The position numbers and the translations under genes were made by a program. From positions 1-52,264 of the forward strand of contig JAUNTQ010000013.1 in the NCBI GenBank assembly GCA_030538605.1: a DNA stretch of 52,264 nucleotides. The letters run 5' to 3'. This document shows positions 2,983 to 16,474 of this stretch, piece after piece (position 1 is the first letter of the stretch; every line of letters starts with the position of its first letter). The stretch is from Pseudomonadota bacterium. Lineage in GTDB: Bacteria; Pseudomonadota; Gammaproteobacteria; Burkholderiales; Burkholderiaceae_C. The notes under the pieces were generated by a model. It was not told the origin of the DNA, did not search any database, and saw only the letters and a list, made by a program, of their open reading frames with translations.

Positions 2983-3100
2983 AATGACTTCGCTTCGCTC
3001 AATGACTGGCGCTGGCGCGCCATGACAAATGACAAAACCGCTGTGCAAAGCGGGTCATTTGTCATGCGCTCGCCAGAGCGCAGTCATTCGTCATTGAGCG
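2983..3100. repeat. Nested imperfect inverted repeat between thioesterase and nitroreductase genes
   Basis: The core is a hairpin: ATGACAAATGAC at 3022-3033 pairs perfectly with GTCATTTGTCAT at 3054-3065, and CCGCT/AGCGG inside the loop extends it. Outer sequences also mirror each other (GCTCAATGAC at 2997-3006 against GTCATTGAGC at about 3089-3098). There is no T-tract, so it is not a classical intrinsic terminator; it could act as an mRNA-stabilising or processing structure between two genes read in the same direction, or as a small mobile palindromic unit. Confidence 0.6.
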
Positions 3101-3115
3101 CCACGGACAACTGAA

Positions 3116-3910: not shown

Positions 3911-5197
3911 TCATACTCCCGAAGATCGCAGATCGTCGATCAGCAATGACGCCACTGCCTCTTCCGGGACGGCCAGTCCGTGTGACCGCATGGCATTGAC
4001 CAGCGTCGCATCCCACGATGCAGTTACGTCGGTCTCTGACAAATCGCGTTCCTTGTGAGGAAATGCGCCAATGGCACGCTGATAGTCGGCGGATAGAAGG
4101 TGCCATGGGTCTGCGTTGCACAACCGCATGACAGTGTTGGCGATATGAATGCCTGCCCAATCGAAGTCGCCGTGGTAGAGCAGCTTGGCACCGGCGTCGG
4201 AAAGCTGTGTCAGCAGAACTCGCTGCGCGGCAGCAGGCATGCCATCCGTGCAGACCAGAGGCGCACAAGCACCGCCCAAACGGTCTGCCGCGATGGACAC
4301 GATGTTGGGGTTCTCACATACGTAGACGACCTGGCCAGCCACCGACCAGGTAGTTGGCGTCCGCAGCAACTGGCGCAGTGACAGGTAGCCAGGTTCACCC
4401 GGTGCTGCAGGTGGACAAGACCCACGATCAACCGGTAGGTTCAAGAACAGGACAGGGCGGGCTAATTCATTGACCAGGATGCCCGCCTGCGCCCAAGTGT
4501 CCCGCGTCCGCTCTGCCGGACGGTTGATACTCTCCGCTCCCGTGACGCCTTCCGGTAGATCCTGTTCCTGCGCTGCATCGTTGGCGCCGTGCCGCAAGAC
4601 GGCCAATACCAAGGTGGCCGTCGGCTGACCGCTGTCAAGAGCATGCGCGTTGCCGAGCACGTCGGCTGCCAGCTGAGCGCGTGTCAAACCCGCAGCAGGC
4701 AGACGCTGCAAAATCGCATCAACCTGCTTCAGCAGTCTGATAGCTGTGTCGGGGTCTTGTCGAGCCATGCGCTTGATCAGGCTCGGCGCGGAGGTTGTCT
4801 GCAGCCAGGCGCTGAGTGTCGGATTCGAAATGGGAGTGTTGAAAACCGCTGTCCAGCGCGTGCGCAGCTCTTCCTTGATGGCGGCACGGTGGACAAGAGG
4901 TCCGTCAATGCGCTCCAGCGCTTCGCGCAGCGACCCCGCAATCTCCGCATTGCGCAAAGCGGTATCGAATCGAGCGATGTCGATGCGAACGGATGGGGTG
5001 AAGCGGGACGGGAGACCGACGATCAACGCCAGGGCTTCATGCTCAGCGCGGCTGAGGCCCGTGAGTTGAAGAACCCTTTTCTCAGGATTGTTGCCATGGC
5101 GCTCGAAGTGCCGCCTCAAGCGACGGCGCAAGGCACTGAGCTCGGATCCACCGAGCCGGCGCTCCAACTTTGGATCGATGTGAGAGGTCGTCGTCAT
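3911..5197 (-). CDS. jetD: Wadjet type II nuclease subunit JetD (TIGR02679/DUF2399, Toprim)
   Basis: Presumed plasmid-cleaving subunit of a Wadjet system. JetD proteins carry a winged-helix arm and a C-terminal Toprim domain that cuts DNA after an SMC motor has recognised a small circle. This protein is 428 aa from the ATG at 5197; Toprim signatures are Glu295 in VVYVCENPNIVS and Asp344/Asp346 in YHGDFDWAGIHIAN, i.e. the full acidic triad. The start overlaps the jetC stop (ATGA). A longer reading from 5353 would add 52 residues that overlap jetC and look non-coding, so 5197 is chosen. Membership rests on the four-gene context as much as on the motifs. Confidence 0.9.
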   Translation of the reverse strand: MTTTSHIDPKLERRLGGSELSALRRRLRRHFERHGNNPEKRVLQLTGLSRAEHEALALIVGLPSRFTPSVRIDIARFDTALRNAEIAGSLREALERIDGPLVHRAAIKEELRTRWTAVFNTPISNPTLSAWLQTTSAPSLIKRMARQDPDTAIRLLKQVDAILQRLPAAGLTRAQLAADVLGNAHALDSGQPTATLVLAVLRHGANDAAQEQDLPEGVTGAESINRPAERTRDTWAQAGILVNELARPVLFLNLPVDRGSCPPAAPGEPGYLSLRQLLRTPTTWSVAGQVVYVCENPNIVSIAADRLGGACAPLVCTDGMPAAAQRVLLTQLSDAGAKLLYHGDFDWAGIHIANTVMRLCNADPWHLLSADYQRAIGAFPHKERDLSETDVTASWDATLVNAMRSHGLAVPEEAVASLLIDDLRSSGV

Positions 5198-8100
5198 GGC
5201 TGCGAGGGCGTGGGAAAGCGCCGGTCCGGATCTTCTTCGCGCCGCTTCGCGCGGCCGTCCCAGAGCCAGCGGGATACAAACACCGCATCCATCCCTTCGC
5301 GCCGCTGCAATTGACAGATGGAAACGCCGGGCAGCTCCGCATAGCATGCCCATTCGCGCTCGCTGGTGATGACGAAATCGAGATCGAACTCGTGGATCAG
5401 CCCCATGCAGTGAGCACGCGCTGCATCATCGATGCCCGCGAAGGCTTCGTCGAGCAACATCAAGCGGGGCGCATGCGGACTGCCACCCCGTCCGTAGAAG
5501 CTGGAAATCGCCGCGAAAAGGGGGACCGTCAGACCAAGTGCCCGTTCACCACTGGAGGCAGGTCCGGAGAGTTTGCGCCACGGATCACCCTGTTGGTGTT
5601 GACGCTCCACACGGAAGCGATGCCAACGGCGGTAGTCCAGCGCGCGGGCCAACTGGTCGATCAGGCTCCCGCCGGGGCCGGCAGTATCGGCATCCGACCG
5701 AGCTCGCTCCATCGCGATCTGTTCCTGAAGCATGACACCCACGACCCGCCGGTCTTCCGTCGACCACATATCCGAACTGCTGTTGAGCAAACGCTCGCGC
5801 GCAACGCTCAATCCAGCCGGCGCCCCTTCTTCGGCGGTCAGCGCTTGCCATTGCAGCCGATAGCGCACGCCCGTGGAAGTCGGGCGCTTGTGGAGCTCTT
5901 CGTTGATGGCGTTGACCTGCTTGTCCGCAGCTCGCATGAGGCGCTGTATTTCGGCTGCGATCTCGGCTTGCAGGTGGTTCTCCAAGACTTCCCGCTCCTT
6001 GGCGGAAAGCAACTCGGTGCGCTGGGCGATGTCGTCGGCCAGTCGGGCGGCCAGGGTGTCGGGGCGCTCAGGCCGGTTCTGATACATGACGTGTACCGAG
6101 AAGCCCCAGTCGTTAGGCTCCGAGGTGGCCTGGTGGCCCAATGCGCTCAGCGCACGCTGCAGTTCGGTCAGGTCTTCAGCCACTTGGCGCTGAATGCGCC
6201 CCCAGGCAGCGTCATCGTCCGGTACCTGGGCAAGCGCCTGTTCTGCCCGTCGTGCCAGATTCAGTGCGGGGTCGATGGTCCAAGGGGCAGCTTGATCCGG
6301 GATCGGAAAATCCGGCAGTGCCGAAGCCAGCAGACTGCTGCCAGCGAAGTGCTGGAGCCGCTGAATGGCTTGGGCGCGAACGGCGGTGCGCTCGTCCAAC
6401 AGCCTTTCTGCGCCCTCCGCCTGTGTGTCGGCGACAGCCCGTGTTTCGCTGGCTTTCGTGAGCTTGGTCTGGCTGATGCCTTCAGCGCTATCAGCGTCTT
6501 TCACTGCATTCGCCGCTGCAGTGAGCTGCAAGCGAAGGGATTCGACTTTCGCGCCGACGGCGCTTTGCAGGACTTCGTAGCGCGTCTTGGCCTTCTCTGC
6601 CCGCTCGTCGGCACTGGCGAGCTCTTCTGCCCGCTCCATCACAGCGCTGCGCGCTTCTTCCTCCCGCTCCTGCTGTTGAAGATGGTCGGGACCAGCGCTG
6701 CACCACTCACGCGCAGCTTGCGTTAGGTGCTGATGGGCTTCGGTGAACCGATCCAATGCGTCCGACACGGGTGACAAGCCGTCGAGTGCGCTGGGCAATT
6801 GAAGGTCGGAGGCGTCGCGCTCCACGGCATCGCGTGCTGCCTGCAATTCTGACTCCGCGGTTCTGCATTGGATATCGGCGGCATCAAGGCGCTTGCCGAC
6901 CTGCAGCACATCGCGTGCGGCGCTGGTGGCCGCCTGGATCGCCTTGTGCAGCGGACCATCCGAAGGCGCTTCGCTCCATTCGCGTTCCGCGCTGCGGCGG
7001 GCTGCCGCCAAGTCGTCGATCTCTTGCACCAGCCGTGCATCTTCCTCGTCGATTGCCAAGAGCCGTGTGGCGGTCTCTTCAAGGCGGCGCTGCCGCGCGA
7101 GTGCCCGGGCCGTGTGTCCGATATAGACGGCCTCGGGCTTTTTCCAAGCTCCCGCCAATGCGCCGAGGCGATACCGGCCGTCGGTTCCAATCCAGGATTC
7201 GGCGTCGCCGGCATCGTTCGAGCCGCATGCGACCGTCGCGAGGATGTCAGCCACCAGATCCGATGTCACGCTGCTGTCGTCGGGCACGACCGCCTGAAGC
7301 ACTTTGGCCAGACTGTCGGTAGCAACAAAAGACCGTTGCACCCATACGTTGTCCAGCAGCGCTGTACCGTCAGCGTGCGTCAAGACTCCGTCGGGCGAGA
7401 GCCATGCATCGAGCAGGCCCGAGGCTTCGAGCGCCGCCTCCAGCCCGGCGCGTTCTCCCGTTTCCACATGGGGCAGAAAGTCAACCAGTTGCCAGAGCGG
7501 TGCGCCAGCTCGCTCATCCCGAACACCCGGCATGCGTGTGCCCGGCGTCGGCGGCGCCGCATCGTGGCCGGCAGCCAGTCGATTTCTCTCGTCGACGAGC
7601 TCGGTGCGCTCCCGCTTCAGATCGCTCCCTCGGTTGTCCAATGCGAGTTGTTGCCCAGCGTGCCGCAGGGCGGCCTGCTGATAGGCTTCCTTCAGCACCG
7701 CATGGACCGGATTGGAACCCTCGGGCAAAGCAACCCATGTGGCGAGCTGTTCCAGTGCCTCCACGACATCGAAGCGAAGCTGCACGAGGCGGGCGCAATG
7801 GGCGGACCATGCGTCTGCCAATTCGTCGCCTGCGTTCTCTGCGTCCTGATCGGCGATGGCACGAGCTTCAGCCAATTCCTCCAGCTCCGCTTGCAGGTCG
7901 CGTTGCGTGGATTGCGCGGCCTGTAGCGCCGTTAGCTTGTTCGCTACGGCGACATGGCGCTGTTCGATGTGGCGGATGCTTCCGCGCCGTTTGCTCGCGG
8001 CGTCACGCAAGAGCGCTCCCGCAACTGCGATCTGCGCGATCGGAAACTGTGCCAGACCTTCCAGCGCCAGCGCAGCGAGCGGGTTGTCCACGAGCGCAGC

Positions 8101-9384
8101 GTCCGTGCCGGCCAGCGCAGCTTCCGAAGCGCACCGAACGCGCGCGGCCAGCAGATCGCTCTTTGCCGCCTCGAAGCGCTGGTTCGAGCGGCGACTGCGT
8201 TCTTCTTCACGATTGAGGGCTTGCCGCGCAATGTCATGTTGCCGGAGGACTGTCTTCGCTTCCTCTTGCCTCTCCGACGCATCCTTCTCGGCCTGGCTAA
8301 GGCGGTTGGCATCCTGATTGGCAGGATCGCTTTGGAGCGTTTCCAGTCGTTCCCGGGCAGCAAGCAGGAGCCGCTTCGCATGCTGGTGGTCGGTGACGGC
8401 TCGGGTCTCCTCGTCCTGAGCTTTCACCAGTGCCGCGCTCGCCTTGTTGCGGTCCTCACTGGCGTTGTCAAAACCGGTCTGAGCCTGTCGCAGCTCCCTC
8501 GCTTGTCGGCGCGTCAGCGTTCCCGCGTATGTCCGGTACCGCTGCTCGAAATGCTGGACGGCGCGTTCCAGTTGGCGTGTTTCGTCGAGCTGGATGCGAT
8601 CTTCTTCCAGTTGGTTCAGCGCTTCGGCGACGTCACCGAGCAGCTCCGTCGGCAACGGCGGGAGCGCCTCGGTGAGCGCATGGGACAGGCCCGCTTCGTC
8701 GGGCTTTTTCGACAATTGGGGCTGGCGCAACTGAATCAAGGTATCCATCAGCGCTTCATAGCGCTTGGTGCCCAGTTGGAACAAGCGCTCGTCGACTGCT
8801 CGGCGATAGCTGGGGGCATTCTCAAAAATCTTGCCCCTGCCTTGAGCTTCAACCGCATCGCGCAGACGTTCCCGGGTGAGAACCACGCGCTGTTCGCTGG
8901 TCAGCCAGATGTCCTGACCGATGCGGGGGTCTTCGCCTGCCGCAGGCCCTTCAAGGATGAAGAACCAGCTCTCCACTTGCGCCTTGCCCGTGGCTGCGGA
9001 CAGGCCGGCTCCCAGCGTGAGGTAGCGGTGCGTGCCGTCCGCCATTCGGCGACCGAATTCGATCCAGGTGTAGCCAATGCGACGTTGATAGCCGCTCATC
9101 AGCAGGTTCCAAGCCATCTTCTTGCCGTTGTCACCATCAGGCTCGATCCGCGAGGGCCTCAGATTCGCATCAAAGAGAAACGGCAGGGTCAGCGAGAGCA
9201 CCTTGGATTTGCCGGTGCCGTTGTTGCCGCGCAGAAGCAAGTGGCCGTCCCTGAACCAGAACTCTTCGCTGTCGTAGTGGAACAGCTCGACCAGGCCGAG
9301 CCTAAGAGGCTGCCAGCGTTCACGCAGCGGCTCCGGCAGCGCTGGACGCAACGATGAGGGCGAATCAAAGAGTGCGTCTGTCAT
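5194..9384 (-). CDS. jetC: Wadjet type II SMC-like ATPase JetC (TIGR02680 family)
   Basis: 1396-aa SMC/MukB-like ATPase, the proposed loop-extruding motor of the anti-plasmid complex. Walker A is GNNGTGKS (residues 53-60); the ABC signature is LSGPASSGERAL (from 1272); Walker B is LMLLDEAFAGID with catalytic Asp1312-Glu1313, the run continuing into the D-loop. Between the head halves lie long Ala/Glu/Arg-rich heptad regions (about 270-470 and 770-1030) separated by a non-helical, glycine-containing segment (about 600-760) where a hinge would sit. It overlaps jetB and jetD by ATGA at both ends. Length and motif order fit the TIGR02680 family rather than SbcC. Confidence 0.92.
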   Translation of the reverse strand: MTDALFDSPSSLRPALPEPLRERWQPLRLGLVELFHYDSEEFWFRDGHLLLRGNNGTGKSKVLSLTLPFLFDANLRPSRIEPDGDNGKKMAWNLLMSGYQRRIGYTWIEFGRRMADGTHRYLTLGAGLSAATGKAQVESWFFILEGPAAGEDPRIGQDIWLTSEQRVVLTRERLRDAVEAQGRGKIFENAPSYRRAVDERLFQLGTKRYEALMDTLIQLRQPQLSKKPDEAGLSHALTEALPPLPTELLGDVAEALNQLEEDRIQLDETRQLERAVQHFEQRYRTYAGTLTRRQARELRQAQTGFDNASEDRNKASAALVKAQDEETRAVTDHQHAKRLLLAARERLETLQSDPANQDANRLSQAEKDASERQEEAKTVLRQHDIARQALNREEERSRRSNQRFEAAKSDLLAARVRCASEAALAGTDAALVDNPLAALALEGLAQFPIAQIAVAGALLRDAASKRRGSIRHIEQRHVAVANKLTALQAAQSTQRDLQAELEELAEARAIADQDAENAGDELADAWSAHCARLVQLRFDVVEALEQLATWVALPEGSNPVHAVLKEAYQQAALRHAGQQLALDNRGSDLKRERTELVDERNRLAAGHDAAPPTPGTRMPGVRDERAGAPLWQLVDFLPHVETGERAGLEAALEASGLLDAWLSPDGVLTHADGTALLDNVWVQRSFVATDSLAKVLQAVVPDDSSVTSDLVADILATVACGSNDAGDAESWIGTDGRYRLGALAGAWKKPEAVYIGHTARALARQRRLEETATRLLAIDEEDARLVQEIDDLAAARRSAEREWSEAPSDGPLHKAIQAATSAARDVLQVGKRLDAADIQCRTAESELQAARDAVERDASDLQLPSALDGLSPVSDALDRFTEAHQHLTQAAREWCSAGPDHLQQQEREEEARSAVMERAEELASADERAEKAKTRYEVLQSAVGAKVESLRLQLTAAANAVKDADSAEGISQTKLTKASETRAVADTQAEGAERLLDERTAVRAQAIQRLQHFAGSSLLASALPDFPIPDQAAPWTIDPALNLARRAEQALAQVPDDDAAWGRIQRQVAEDLTELQRALSALGHQATSEPNDWGFSVHVMYQNRPERPDTLAARLADDIAQRTELLSAKEREVLENHLQAEIAAEIQRLMRAADKQVNAINEELHKRPTSTGVRYRLQWQALTAEEGAPAGLSVARERLLNSSSDMWSTEDRRVVGVMLQEQIAMERARSDADTAGPGGSLIDQLARALDYRRWHRFRVERQHQQGDPWRKLSGPASSGERALGLTVPLFAAISSFYGRGGSPHAPRLMLLDEAFAGIDDAARAHCMGLIHEFDLDFVITSEREWACYAELPGVSICQLQRREGMDAVFVSRWLWDGRAKRREEDPDRRFPTPSQP

Positions 9385-10661
9385 GCTTCGAAGAGCGTAT
9401 CTGCTGATCCCTTGCGCACGGACTGCGTGGCAGGCGGGTGGATCTGGGTGTCACCGATGGCGAAGCGAGCGATGGCCGCCAGCGGGCGGATCTGGCCATT
9501 CTGACGCGCGATGAGTTGGAGTTTGTTCAGCCTGTCCAGCGCAATGCTGGCCAGCTCCTTCTCGGCGCCGGGCTCGCGCGCCGATTTGCGCCAGTAGCGG
9601 CCATACCGGTCTACCGCGCCCCGCAAGAACGCAGCGATCGCATCGTCCGTGGTGATTGGAGAGGCTGGCGCATCGCGCAAACGCTGAGCGAGGTGTTCCG
9701 CGACCAGCAACGTGGCGTGGGCCTCGGTACCTTCCGCAGGCATGGAAACGTCGGTCAGCTGCCCGGATTCGTCGGTCAATGCCAGCCCTTCGGCGCGTTG
9801 CTCGGCGACCAAGCCAGTGGCGTCGCAAAGCCGTCCCGCCATGGCACCGCGCTGGTTGACGAAGTAGGCCTGCGTGTCAGCGTCCAGGGAGGTGGTGTAG
9901 ATCACCGGATCATCCAGCAGACGACGTGCGAGGTGATGGCGCTGGGCATCCCGGCGTCCTTGTTCGCCATCGGCCGCATGCTCGACCACCAGCGATCGCA
10001 GCCGATCTTCGAAGTCGACGGGCATGTCTTCCAGCCGCCACGTGGACGGCCCACGCACGGCCGCGAGCATGCCGGCCAGCATGCGGCGTTGCACGTCGTA
10101 GAGCGCATCGTGCTGCGCCGTGCGGTGGTCGTGAATGAAGCTTTCCTCGTCCCCTGCCACGCGTTGCAGCACACCGTGTTCCAGCAGCGTCCTGCAGACG
10201 GCGACGAGATCCCGGCGATCCGCAGAACTGCGCAAGGCGAACTCGAACCCGCGTGACGTCAAGGTGGTCTCCGCTGCCCACTGCACCACGCGCTCGCCCA
10301 GCAACTGCAGCGTGATCTGCGGATCGGCCCGTTCGAGCACAGCGCAGGCCAGACAGAGCAGAACATAACGGCGCTTGTCATAGGCCGGCAAACCTCGTGT
10401 GTCGTCGGTCAGGTTCGCCGGACGTTTGAACAGTCGGGCACCTTCACGCTCGACATGCAGGGGCCAGCCAGCTTCACGTGCAAACCAGTCGCGCAGCCGT
10501 TCGGCTTGGCGCCTGACAGCCGGGAAATCCTCGTTACCAGGTGCCATCAATGGGCGCATCAAAAGGGCGCGGACGCCTCGGCTGAATTCGTCTTGCTGCT
10601 GTGCCTTCTGGAGTTCTCCCAGGCGCTGGCTGTCTTGGCGGGGGGAAGGGCGCGCACTCAT
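9381..10661 (-). CDS. jetB: Wadjet type II subunit JetB (TIGR02678/DUF2398)
   Basis: 426-aa protein recognised by its N-terminal pattern (DEFSRGVRALLMRPLM, then VRREAERLRDW-like and KRRYVLLCLACAVLERADPQ) as a DUF2398 member. In Wadjet complexes the JetB position is filled by a MukE/KITE-like winged-helix dimer that binds the kleisin-like JetA; I see no catalytic motif. The start overlaps the jetA stop and its own stop overlaps the jetC start (both ATGA), indicating a fixed-stoichiometry operon. Role is inferred from family and context. Confidence 0.88.
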   Translation of the reverse strand: MSARPSPRQDSQRLGELQKAQQQDEFSRGVRALLMRPLMAPGNEDFPAVRRQAERLRDWFAREAGWPLHVEREGARLFKRPANLTDDTRGLPAYDKRRYVLLCLACAVLERADPQITLQLLGERVVQWAAETTLTSRGFEFALRSSADRRDLVAVCRTLLEHGVLQRVAGDEESFIHDHRTAQHDALYDVQRRMLAGMLAAVRGPSTWRLEDMPVDFEDRLRSLVVEHAADGEQGRRDAQRHHLARRLLDDPVIYTTSLDADTQAYFVNQRGAMAGRLCDATGLVAEQRAEGLALTDESGQLTDVSMPAEGTEAHATLLVAEHLAQRLRDAPASPITTDDAIAAFLRGAVDRYGRYWRKSAREPGAEKELASIALDRLNKLQLIARQNGQIRPLAAIARFAIGDTQIHPPATQSVRKGSADTLFEA

Positions 10662-12190
10662 ATCGGCGCCTGCGTAAAGGCGATCGTGAGCAGCTGGTCT
10701 CTGCCCGAGAAGATGCCTGCTGGCGTGCGGATCTGGGCCTGACTGTCGCTCCCCAACGGTTCCATGCGGATCTGCAGCAGTCCATCTCCGGTTTGACGCT
10801 CGACAGTCTGCTCAGGACTTGACTGCTCCGCCAAAGCTTCGCCGAGCAGGCTCAGGAACAGGTCAAACGCGTGTGTATCCAGATCGCCCAGCTCTGACAG
10901 CCGAGTGGCGCGACCGGTGGCCAGCCGTTGGCGCGCCGCATCGACCTGGCGTGATTCCTCCGCCAGCTGCTGCGCCATCAGCGCGCGTTCGGCACTGCGA
11001 TCACGCACGCGTGACAGCGCACCGCGCGGCGACGCTTCTCCATATTCGCGCAGGCGCGGGCTGATCTGCAGGGGTGGCGCATCCGCCCAGGAGGTGCTGG
11101 GTGGTAGATCCTCGTCCGCTTGCGGGTTGAGCGAGAAATGCCGTGCCGGCTGGAGCGCGAAGGCAGCACGTGCCAGACGATGCGCCTGTCCCTCGGTGTC
11201 GCAGGCGGCAAACCATTGGGCCAATGTTCGGAAATCCGCCGAACGATCGCTTCGCCCACTGCGCCGTTCATTCATGGCGGCGATCGCGCCCAGCAACTGG
11301 GGAATGGCAGCACGGGCGCGCGCGCGCAGCAATTCTGCTTGGGGCGGTTCGGCGCCCGTTGCCAGGAACCAGCCTCGAAGTCCTTTCCACCGTTCTCGCC
11401 ATGCGCGCCAGCGACGCATCTCTTCATCTGTCCGGTCTTGCGCATCGCCAGGTGCCGTGTCGCGCGCTTCGCGCGCCGCGATCTGAAGAAAGACGGCGTC
11501 TATCCGCGGTGAAAGGTATTCAATGAGTTGGGCGATGCCGTCCGAGCGGCGCACCAGGTCGCTCATGAAGCGCTCCAAGTAGTCGATCAGGCGCCGCTTG
11601 TAGGCGATGACCGTACTGGCTTCGGCCTGCTGGAGTTCCAGGCTGCGCGCCACGCCCGCCATGAATGCCTGGGCGTTTTCGGCCAGGTCCTCAAATACCC
11701 GAACCAGATCTCGCAGGATCTCATGCATCTTGGCGACGTCCGCTACCTCAGCCGAGGCCGATTCGTCGATGAGGTGCTGCAGTGACTGAAGACCGTTGGC
11801 GATGTCCTCCAGTGCGACGGTCTGCAGTTGGGCTCGGCGCCGCAAGGTCTGAAAAAAGACGGACAGGCCGGCTTCCGCAGCTTCACCGCCATGGGAGAGG
11901 CGATAGAGAAAGCGCGCACGATAGAAATCGCTCAGCGACGATACGCGCGCGGTGTCGGGCTGCGATTCCAGATTGCCCCAGACGGCCAACTGAGCCAGAG
12001 CGCTGTTGACTTCCTCGATGCGCGGAGACGGAGAGGGCCAATCAGCTTCTGCCAGCACCTCATCCGGACGCAACTGCAGCCGGTACTGCCGTTTGGCTGC
12101 CGCGAAGACGTCCATGATGCAACGGTAAAACGCAGCCTTCTCCACATTCAGGTGCTGGAAGAGCTCTGCTGCCGTAGTCGTCTTCTGCAT
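10658..12190 (-). CDS. jetA: Wadjet type II subunit JetA (TIGR02677/DUF2397), first gene of cassette
   Basis: 510-aa protein opening MQKTTTAAELFQHLNVEKAA and continuing with AAFYRCIMDVFAAAKRQY, typical of DUF2397 proteins that begin four-gene Wadjet type II operons. By analogy with MukF it is the kleisin-like bridge between SMC heads and JetB; mostly predicted helical, no enzymatic motif. The ribosome site is strong (GAGGAGGAGC about 8 bases before ATG 12190), as expected for the lead gene. The promoter must lie between 12191 and about 12300, just before the transposase remnant; I could not pick a convincing -35/-10 pair. Confidence 0.88.
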   Translation of the reverse strand: MQKTTTAAELFQHLNVEKAAFYRCIMDVFAAAKRQYRLQLRPDEVLAEADWPSPSPRIEEVNSALAQLAVWGNLESQPDTARVSSLSDFYRARFLYRLSHGGEAAEAGLSVFFQTLRRRAQLQTVALEDIANGLQSLQHLIDESASAEVADVAKMHEILRDLVRVFEDLAENAQAFMAGVARSLELQQAEASTVIAYKRRLIDYLERFMSDLVRRSDGIAQLIEYLSPRIDAVFLQIAAREARDTAPGDAQDRTDEEMRRWRAWRERWKGLRGWFLATGAEPPQAELLRARARAAIPQLLGAIAAMNERRSGRSDRSADFRTLAQWFAACDTEGQAHRLARAAFALQPARHFSLNPQADEDLPPSTSWADAPPLQISPRLREYGEASPRGALSRVRDRSAERALMAQQLAEESRQVDAARQRLATGRATRLSELGDLDTHAFDLFLSLLGEALAEQSSPEQTVERQTGDGLLQIRMEPLGSDSQAQIRTPAGIFSGRDQLLTIAFTQAPI

Positions 12191-12304
12191 TGGACTTGCT
12201 CCTCCTCATCAGCGCGGTTTGGGACTGTTGTCATAAATGGTAGCCGCGATCGTGGGCGGGCCATCCGAGAGATGGGCGGATTCAAGTCCAAGTGCAACAA
12301 ATGT

Positions 12305-12640
12305 TCAATGCATTGAATCAGGTTGCTGCATTAGCCGATGCAAGTGCTGCGCATAGACCTCCAAGGGGGTGCAGTAGCCCAAAGTCATCCTGGGTCGTGC
12401 ATTCATCTCATCGGCCACCGCATCGAGCTGCTCCTGGGAGTAGCCACTCAAGTCGGAGCCTTTTGGAAAGCATTGGCGCAGCAGTCCATTGGTGTTCTCG
12501 TAGCTGCCCCGCTGCCCCGCTGCCCTGCTTCCAAGGACTGTAGGGGCCGCAGAAGTACACCTTCATGCCCGTGTTCCGATCCTGAATTTCCCCGCGCCGA
12601 TGCCGGTCAGCGAATTCCATCAGGGGCAGTGGTCAACAAG
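12305..12640 (-). pseudogene. IS30-family transposase, C-terminal remnant with frameshift
   Basis: Read leftwards, the conceptual translation gives MKVYFCGPYSPWKQGS, then after a frame change YENTNGLLRQCFPKGSDLSG and LDAVADEMNARPRMTLGYCT, PLEVYAQHL, ending at the TGA at 12305-12307. These are the hallmark C-terminal residues of IS30 DDE transposases (PYSPWQRG..ENTNGLLR). Everything upstream of the last roughly 110 codons is missing. The frame breaks where the octamer GGGGCAGC has been tandemly expanded (about 12500-12525), adding 16 bases. The element is dead. Confidence 0.82.
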
Positions 12641-12734: not shown

Positions 12735-12874
12735 ATGGGTAGAGCCGAAGGCGAAACCCAGCGCTCTCGCGAGCCGATTTGCTGGCTTTCGCTCGTCGCT
12801 CTACCCAACCCTGCAAAGATGTGTGTGCATGCACAAGCCTCCTCTGGAGGAGGGGCGGGCAGCCCAGGCGTCTG
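12735..12874 (-). repeat. Dispersed repeat family A, copy 1
   Basis: About 140 bases whose reverse complement matches 45604-45750 over nearly the whole length. Shared blocks include CTGGGCTGCCCGC, ATGCACACA, GGGTAGAGCGA and CGCTGGGTTTCGCCTTCGGC. Internally it is a long imperfect palindrome: GGGTAGAGC near one end and GCTCTACCC near the other. No protein is encoded; short open frames here are accidental. Confidence 0.75.
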
Positions 12875-12900
12875 TTGATCCATCCATGGGATTGACGATA

Positions 12901-12992
12901 AAAAGTGAGCTGCTTGCGTACGTATATATTCAATTTAAGATGTAAATATATATGAAAATGTTTTAAAACGTACGCAAACAGCTCACTTTTTT
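12901..12992. repeat. Dispersed AT-rich palindrome family B, copy 1
   Basis: Arms AAAAGTGAGCTGCTTGCGTA(CGT) at 12901-12923 and its complement at 12968-12990 pair at 22 of 23 positions, around an AT-rich core. It sits 30 bases past the exonuclease III stop codon (which reads toward it) and may terminate or stabilise that transcript. Related copies are at 21836-21938, 35555-35650 and 45955-46030. Confidence 0.78.
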
Positions 12993-14753: not shown

Positions 14754-14872
14754 GAGGGGAATGCAGTGGGTGCGCTATCCAGTGGTTTGGCCCAGCCAAA
14801 GGGGCGGACTCTTTGGGTTGTCTTGCGAAGGGGTATAGCCATTTAGCTGAAATCGACGGATTTTCTAGCAGA

Positions 14873-16474
14873 ATGCTTGCACTCTTAGCGAAATTGCAAC
14901 CCATGCTCGACACCCTTTTGGGTTTCCACCGGCTCGCGGAAATTTACGACATCCAGCTGGTGCAACCGCTTTTCACCCGCAGCCGCGTGGGATCGGTGCG
15001 CCAGCGCGAAGCGGCGGCTGGCCAGGAAATACGCACCTGGCCCCCGCAGTACCAGCCGACCGACAGCTTTCGCGGGCATTTCGAATTTGGCTTGAAGTAT
15101 GAGCGACTGAACTTCGAGTTCTTCTCGCGGCTGCTCCACCGCGTCGAGCCGCAAGACGTGGCGGCGTGGGTGAGGGACGAGCCCACGGGAAGCTACGCCC
15201 GGCGTGCCGCTTTTTTCTACGAATGGTTCACCGGCAGGCAACTCGCCGTGCCGGACACGGCACCCAACGTGGGTTACGTCGATGCGATCGATGCCGCCCA
15301 GTACCTGGTTGCGCAGCGGCCAGATCGGGTCCGGCGCTGGCGTGTCAATGACAACCTGCCGGGCTCGCGCGATTTCTGCCCGATGGTCTATCTGGGGCCG
15401 CAGGCGCAGCGGGGCTGGCTGTATGACGTGGCGGCGGGTGTCCAGACGCTCGACGACACCTACGGGCCGGAGCTGTTGCTGCGCAGCGCGGCCTGGCTGA
15501 CGTTCAAGGAGTCGCGGGCCAGTTTCGCCATCGAGCACGAGGCAGACAAGCAGGATCGGGTAAAGCGCTTCGCGGCGGCCATCGGCACCTACAGCGGCCG
15601 CATGGACGATCCGATGGCGGCAGAGCAGCTGCTGACGCTGCAGCAGGCCGTGCTTGGCGAGACGGCGCTGCGGGTGGGCATCCGGCAATCGCCCGTGTTC
15701 GTCGGTGAGCGCAGCTTCGTGAGCGAGATCGTCCACTACATCGCTCCGTCCGAGGAGCTGGTGGTGGCGATGCTCGATGCCTTGCGCGGTTTCGAAGTCC
15801 GCACGCGGGGCGCGAACCCGGTGGCGCGCGCGGCGGCCGTGTCCTTTGCCTTCGTCTATCTGCACCCGCTCGCGGATGGCAACGGCCGCATCCACCGCTT
15901 CCTGGTCAATCACCTGCTCGCGGCGGACAGGGTGGTGCCGGCCAACCTCATCGTGCCGGTTTCGGCGACGATTGCTGGCTCGGCCAAAGGGCGCGCCGAC
16001 TATGACCAGGCCCTGGAGTCCTTCTCGCGCCCCTTCATGCAGGTCTATGCCGATGCCTACCGCTTTGGGCCGAAGCGGCTTTGCCCGGATGGTGTCGAAA
16101 CCAATGTCGAATTCCTTCGGGCCGAGGACGCGCGGCATGCATGGCGTTACCTCGATCTGAGCGGGCAGGCGCGCTACCTGAGCGATGTGCTGCGCCAGAC
16201 GGTGGAGCAGGAGATGGCGCAGGAAGCCTTGGCGCTGCGCCGGTACGGCGAGGCACGGGCAGCGATCAAGGAGCTGGTCGAGATGCCGGATCCGGATGCG
16301 GACCGGATCATTCGGTCGCTCACAGAAGGAGGCTGGAAAGTGAGCAGCAAGCTGCGCAAGTCCCTGCCCCAGATCTTCGCGGAGAACGGTGTCTTCTACA
16401 CAAGACACGCACAGATCATTGCTGCGGTTCGCGCCGTGTTCGAGGGCGAGGGGCCTGAGGCTGAACAAGAATAG
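14873..16474 (+). CDS. Fic family protein, probable AMP-transferase with inhibitory helix
   Basis: Fic enzymes transfer AMP from ATP onto Ser/Thr/Tyr of target proteins. The core motif HPLADGNGRIHR is intact (residues 331-342, catalytic His331). An N-terminal segment with Ser217-x-x-x-Glu221 (KESRASFAIEHE) resembles the autoinhibitory (S/T)xxxE(G/N) helix of class II Fic proteins, the last position being His. The protein is about 533 aa, larger than toxin-type Fic, with a helical C-terminal extension. ATG 14873 is chosen; the same frame is open to a TTG at 14813, and ATG 14903 is possible; no clear ribosome site distinguishes them. No antitoxin-sized partner is adjacent. It interrupts a LysR-EamA arrangement (see findings). 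Confidence 0.9.
   Translation: MLALLAKLQPMLDTLLGFHRLAEIYDIQLVQPLFTRSRVGSVRQREAAAGQEIRTWPPQYQPTDSFRGHFEFGLKYERLNFEFFSRLLHRVEPQDVAAWVRDEPTGSYARRAAFFYEWFTGRQLAVPDTAPNVGYVDAIDAAQYLVAQRPDRVRRWRVNDNLPGSRDFCPMVYLGPQAQRGWLYDVAAGVQTLDDTYGPELLLRSAAWLTFKESRASFAIEHEADKQDRVKRFAAAIGTYSGRMDDPMAAEQLLTLQQAVLGETALRVGIRQSPVFVGERSFVSEIVHYIAPSEELVVAMLDALRGFEVRTRGANPVARAAAVSFAFVYLHPLADGNGRIHRFLVNHLLAADRVVPANLIVPVSATIAGSAKGRADYDQALESFSRPFMQVYADAYRFGPKRLCPDGVETNVEFLRAEDARHAWRYLDLSGQARYLSDVLRQTVEQEMAQEALALRRYGEARAAIKELVEMPDPDADRIIRSLTEGGWKVSSKLRKSLPQIFAENGVFYTRHAQIIAAVRAVFEGEGPEAEQE

Follow-up and report, generated by a model that had tools for sequence, protein, structure and literature searches.

Wadjet systems are described as dimeric loop extruders built from JetA, JetB, and JetC, in which completed extrusion of a circular DNA activates sequence-independent cleavage by JetD (PMC10586767, PMC12647877). 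A type II system with a solved structure, nvJET of Neobacillus vireti LMG 21834, is reported to cleave naked circular DNA, to have a channel-less hinge, and to have failed to bypass the obstacles against which it was tested; the complex was reconstituted as (JetC2 JetB1 JetA1)2 with a JetD dimer, rather than at 1:1:1:1 (PMC12647877). From the molecule names and the same report, we infer that PDB entry 9qe0 is this complex. Deletion of the native Wadjet of Clostridium cellulovorans is reported to increase conjugation about 10^5-fold (PMC12287153), and predicted Wadjets are described as widespread in strains of Ralstonia solanacearum (PMC7251935). Deletion of a predicted type III Wadjet from Cupriavidus necator is reported to leave electroporation and plasmid stability unchanged (PMC12645576), and an intact operon is thus no proof of restriction under test conditions.

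Family assignment and catalytic residues

The locus described here lies in a 52,264-bp stretch of DNA, hereafter the window, which is contig 93 of a 3.77-Mb genome in 234 contigs. Positions 3911-12190 of the minus strand hold a complete Wadjet type II cassette in the order jetA-jetB-jetC-jetD, coding for four full-length proteins without internal stops in any of the genes; the genome contains a single TIGR02680 match. The jetA gene (10658..12190, minus strand) codes for a 510-aa DUF2397 protein, the kleisin-type subunit (PF09660, E 1.9e-146; TIGR02677, 555 bits against a cut-off of 166), with a relative in PDB, the JetA chain 9qe0_E (E 4.1e-29). It is followed on the same strand by jetB (9381..10661), coding for a 426-aa DUF2398 protein, the KITE-type subunit (PF09661, E 2.4e-98; TIGR02678, 390 bits, cut-off 125), and jetC (5194..9384), whose 1,396-aa SMC/MukB-like ATPase matches Pfam SbcC_Walker_B, TIGR02680 (1359 bits, cut-off 463), and the JetC chain 9qe0_A (E 6.1e-68; profile E 1e-96). 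The last gene, jetD (3911..5197, minus strand), codes for a 428-aa Toprim nuclease with DUF3323 and DUF2399 domains (PF11796 and PF09664; TIGR02679, 410 bits, cut-off 196); we place its start at the ATGA-coupled ATG at 5197, which fits the relatives, rather than at 5353 as in the mechanical ORF list.

All four proteins thus match the TIGR02677-02680 and DUF2397-2399 profiles named in the original prediction, far over the cut-offs and over nearly the whole length of each TIGR model, and the top PADLOC models are JetA2, JetB2, JetC2, and JetD2. The DUF2397, DUF2398, TIGR02680 SMC, and DUF2399 genes are adjacent and in jetABCD order, as in type II. Compared with Wadjet type I (Escherichia coli GF4-3, PA14) and type III (C. 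necator), the proteins give weak PADLOC matches to JetC1, JetD1, and JetD3 (E 3.5e-8 or weaker), far under the scores of the type II models, with those to JetD1 and JetD3 covering the C-terminal part of JetD. Sequence and profile searches of JetB and JetD against PDB (E 0.1) gave no match; with no solved relative found by profile, the folds of these two subunits are taken from their family names only.

To examine the catalytic motifs, we used protein alignments of 15 sequences, comprising the window, 13 of the 15 related loci in the genome_contigs set, and one further locus, L012; two loci were left out of both the protein and the upstream alignments, L034 being near-identical to L025 inside the shared block described below and L037 having a broken jetC. 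JetC residues G53NNGTGKS60, S1277SGER1281, and D1312E1313 are invariant in the alignment, and we take these to be the Walker A (53-60), signature (1277-1281), and Walker B (1312-1313) motifs of an intact ABC ATPase. JetD combines an N-terminal DUF3323 part with a Toprim domain in which E295 and D344-x-D346 are likewise invariant, presumably as the metal-binding acids of the family. The prediction of full-length proteins with intact motifs and Toprim acidic residues is therefore borne out. The profile alignment of JetC with 9qe0_A also runs through the expected hinge region (residues 540-860; 6805..7767, minus strand). From this relationship and its length of 1,396 aa, the window JetC is probably a long-armed protein with a channel-less hinge, like that of N. 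vireti.

Gene junctions, upstream region, and neighbors

Each of the three junctions, A/B, B/C, and C/D, is a 4-base ATGA overlap (−4), as originally described. Across the loci, with starts assigned to the codon closest to the expected position, the A/B junction is a 4-base overlap in 15 of 16 (seven ATGA and eight GTGA; the L012 stretch runs out at jetA, which was therefore not assessable), the B/C junction in 14 of 17, and the C/D junction in 6 of 17. The other 11 C/D junctions comprise two one-base overlaps, eight gaps of 4-5 bases, and one broken junction (L037). Four-base overlaps are also frequent in bacterial operons. Given the uneven subunit ratio of the N. vireti complex (PMC12647877) and the frequent absence of the C/D overlap, the proposed tight stoichiometric translation cannot be deduced from the overlaps, and we read them as indicating one operon, not a fixed stoichiometry.

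Upstream of jetA, an AGGAGG Shine-Dalgarno sequence can be read at 12201..12206 (minus strand), and GGAGGAGC is present in nine of 14 aligned upstream regions, the window counted. The same alignment contains a putative promoter-like box, CGGCTACCATTT, at 12235..12246 (minus strand); eight of the 14 sequences have the form CGGTTACTATTT, from which the window copy deviates at two bases. About 30 bp above this box, and about 90 bp above jetA, is the near end of an IS30-family remnant (12279..12576, minus strand), confirming the predicted IS remnant beside the cassette. It codes for the last 43 residues of the transposase (NF033563 positions 224-266 of 267, E 1.5e-15), its score of 57.6 bits falling below the whole-protein cut-off of 80, as expected of a fragment, and its DNA is 75% identical to six copies in a congener (G013). 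The position of this fragment and the two deviating bases raise the question of whether the operon is intact but silent, its promoter weakened or removed by the IS30 fragment and an upstream rearrangement. We consider this unlikely, since the upstream block common to Comamonas composti (to 12272) is kept and the genes are without decay.

The closest genes on either side are of housekeeping type, as predicted, with an exonuclease III-like gene (xthA) on the upstream side and a nitroreductase gene downstream (Pfam). Congeners have the nitroreductase block and xthA widely separated (e.g., by ~136 kb in G013 and ~56 kb in G023), and the cassette therefore sits at a rearrangement point; with flanks this distant, no empty site could be defined by comparison with these genomes. 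An integrase beside the cassette was also sought, and the three arm-domain integrase matches in the genome are all on other contigs.

Beyond the IS30 remnant, the order is repeated DNA (12736-12867), a palindrome (12900-12991), and the exonuclease III-like gene. The repeated DNA and a second short repeat at 2983-3102 each have several copies elsewhere in the genome and are at least partly palindromic. The palindrome, which lies behind the exonuclease gene, is 92 bp long, AT-rich, and absent from Rfam, and a search of the window at Rfam gathering thresholds gave no match. We estimate ~100 copies of its family in the genome, with 113 and 97 hits to the arm pattern against 5 and 7 for the reversed control; several copies have a spacing of exactly 65 bp between their arm starts. 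In 28 congeners, the pattern gives 3 to 28 hits each, with controls of 0 to 34, and is somewhat above the control in a few (e.g., G016, 24 vs 11). Candidate explanations are a terminator family or a mobile palindrome.

Farther out, 2.6 kb from jetA and beyond the IS30 remnant, the exonuclease gene, and an EamA gene, is a gene for a 553-aa Fic-domain protein (14813-16474). In PADLOC, almost the full length of this protein matches the candidate defense family PDC-S24 (E 4.9e-163), and there is a weak match to SoFic. The other 29 of the 30 window ORFs scanned gave no PADLOC match at E 1e-5; the ORFs were picked by length and codon bias, some may be in wrong frames, and a few small ones were left out. 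The expectation of a defense island is thus weakly supported, with one candidate among 30 ORFs, and PDC-S24 and the Wadjet may at most form a small defense cluster, not a rich island.

Maintenance, distribution, and related loci

Comparison with the nearest relative, in C. composti, gives dN/dS values of 0.048 for jetA, 0.083 for jetB, 0.137 for jetC, and 0.193 for jetD, with amino acid identities of 93.9, 93.4, 89.3, and 82.5%, respectively; jetD is the fastest changing of the four genes. These low ratios suggest that all four genes are maintained under purifying selection. Curated families, PADLOC type II models, gene order, catalytic motifs, and selection therefore agree with the predicted complete type II Wadjet cassette.

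The family is rare. Counting the host genome each time, matches over the family cut-off occur in 2 of 199 genomes of relatives and in 3 of 369 sampled members of the class; weaker matches below the cut-off, in 10 and 22 genomes, respectively, are probably other SMC-like proteins. JetC has matches in 22 plasmid records, each at <60% identity and the best at 40.6% (Cupriavidus taiwanensis), and no relatives among the phage records searched at E 1e-5. In a BLASTN search with the whole window (E 1e-5), the matches to each of the 15 genome_contigs loci fall entirely within 3918-12272, so that the cassette is shared and the flanks are not. One locus, L037 (7168-15414), from a Burkholderiaceae metagenome-assembled genome, has an interrupted jetC and open frames that do not fit the normal layout, and is a decayed copy or an assembly error.

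This distribution bears on whether the operon is instead a chromosome-organizing SMC of the MukBEF/MksBEF kind, with its main role in the host chromosome and JetD as an auxiliary. JetC is SMC-like, housekeeping-type genes adjoin the operon on both sides, and a Pseudomonas MksBEF, likely to have arisen through loss of JetD, is reported to contribute to chromosome organization (PMC10586767). However, jetD is intact, retains its acidic residues, and is ATGA-coupled to jetC, which sets the operon apart from MukBEF or nuclease-less MksBEF; moreover, a family under the cut-off in 197 of the 199 genomes, and with no flank in common with the window at any of the 15 loci, does not behave like a housekeeping gene. 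We thus regard a chromosomal main role as highly improbable.

Seven of the 15 loci (L025, L027, L028, L030, L033, L034, and L035) have an AbiEi-AbiEii pair divergently upstream of jetA, identified by Pfam on the pair of L027. The abiE genes and jetABCD form a common block of 10.2-10.5 kb, at about 4.9-15.45 kb in the seven loci, with pairwise DNA identities of ~83-95% (L030 in two pieces, and L025 and L034 99.7% identical) and, in four of the seven, an abrupt left boundary at TCGATCATGAGGCC. Outside the block, L025 and L034 have the right flank in common and not the left, a 0.95-kb piece of L027 is shared with L025 and L034, and a 0.38-kb piece is found in L030 and L033; there is no other outer match of >150 bp between the seven among the matches listed (up to 12 pieces per pair). 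The seven loci are related and therefore not seven independent events, and we infer that the abiE-jetABCD block moves as a unit. A distant AbiE pair is also near the cassette in L029, and no tRNA genes were found in the 10 related loci scanned. A congener (G002) with its own type II Wadjet (L038) has a gene for an AbiEii-like nucleotidyltransferase near jetD (5035-5826). No title on Wadjet-AbiE linkage was found among the matches listed in the literature search.

These loci lead us to a tentative speculation, which we hold to be doubtful as a whole, that the type II Wadjets of this betaproteobacterial branch may be autonomous cassettes moving from one chromosomal site to another without their own recombinase, bundled with AbiE in some relatives as a ~10.5-kb two-layer module (against plasmids plus phages, or with addiction), that JetD may evolve against plasmid-borne inhibitors, and that the window copy would be the version without AbiE. 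The linked block may be a case of two defense layers passed on and moved together. The proximity of AbiE, an abortive-infection system, in the seven loci, and of the candidate phage defense gene PDC-S24 in the window, could also be taken to mean that the operon restricts phages instead of plasmids, or both; this is very unlikely, as characterized Wadjets are reported to act on small circular DNA and to spare linear DNA (PMC10586767).

Predicted activity and comparison with known systems

We conclude that the window very probably carries a complete, maintained type II Wadjet operon, which from its sequence would code for an SMC motor that extrudes DNA loops and, on small circular DNA, switches on a Toprim nuclease. 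By analogy with the family, JetA, JetB, and JetC would form a dimeric motor that reels in DNA using ATP; upon finished extrusion of a small circle, the motor would activate JetD, which would then cut the circle without sequence specificity. The chromosome and linear DNA would be spared, since extrusion does not reach completion on them, and if the JetC hinge lacks a channel, as its relationship to the N. vireti complex makes probable, obstacles would not be bypassed through the hinge. Of 29 genomes in the genus, two carry a Rep3-type (Rep_3) plasmid replicon and the host genome is among the negatives, a pattern that says nothing for or against plasmid exclusion. Should the host be engineered, the operon is a likely barrier against small plasmids.

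The cassette is closest to that of C. composti DSM 21721 (L023), with 94, 93, 89, and 83% identical JetA, JetB, JetC, and JetD and the same three ATGA junctions; the C. composti cassette lies in an island with tyrosine integrase, YhcG, ParB-like, DUF2130, and SIR2 genes, and its flanks have no homology to the window. The Hydrogenophaga, Simplicispira, and Xylophilus loci (L025, L027, L028, and L033-L035) have the same gene order and 71-72% JetC identity, but unlike the window, they adjoin the AbiEi-AbiEii pair and lack the jetC/jetD overlap. In comparison with nvJET (PDB 9qe0, 9qe1), JetC and JetA are recognized over most of their length, including the JetC hinge region, although the sequences are distant, JetB and JetD lack a PDB match, and cleavage is demonstrated for nvJET and predicted for the window cassette. 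With the N. vireti structure solved and cleavage shown, the type II kind is already known, and the original view of type II as much less studied than type I is now only partly true, its structure and activity having been published. The window cassette is an ordinary member of this described family. Its interest lies in being a well-preserved type II Wadjet from a betaproteobacterium, of a kind that is rare in the class (over the cut-off in 3 of 369 sampled genomes, its own counted), and it might be developed into a second model, from a Gram-negative host, to complement N. vireti.
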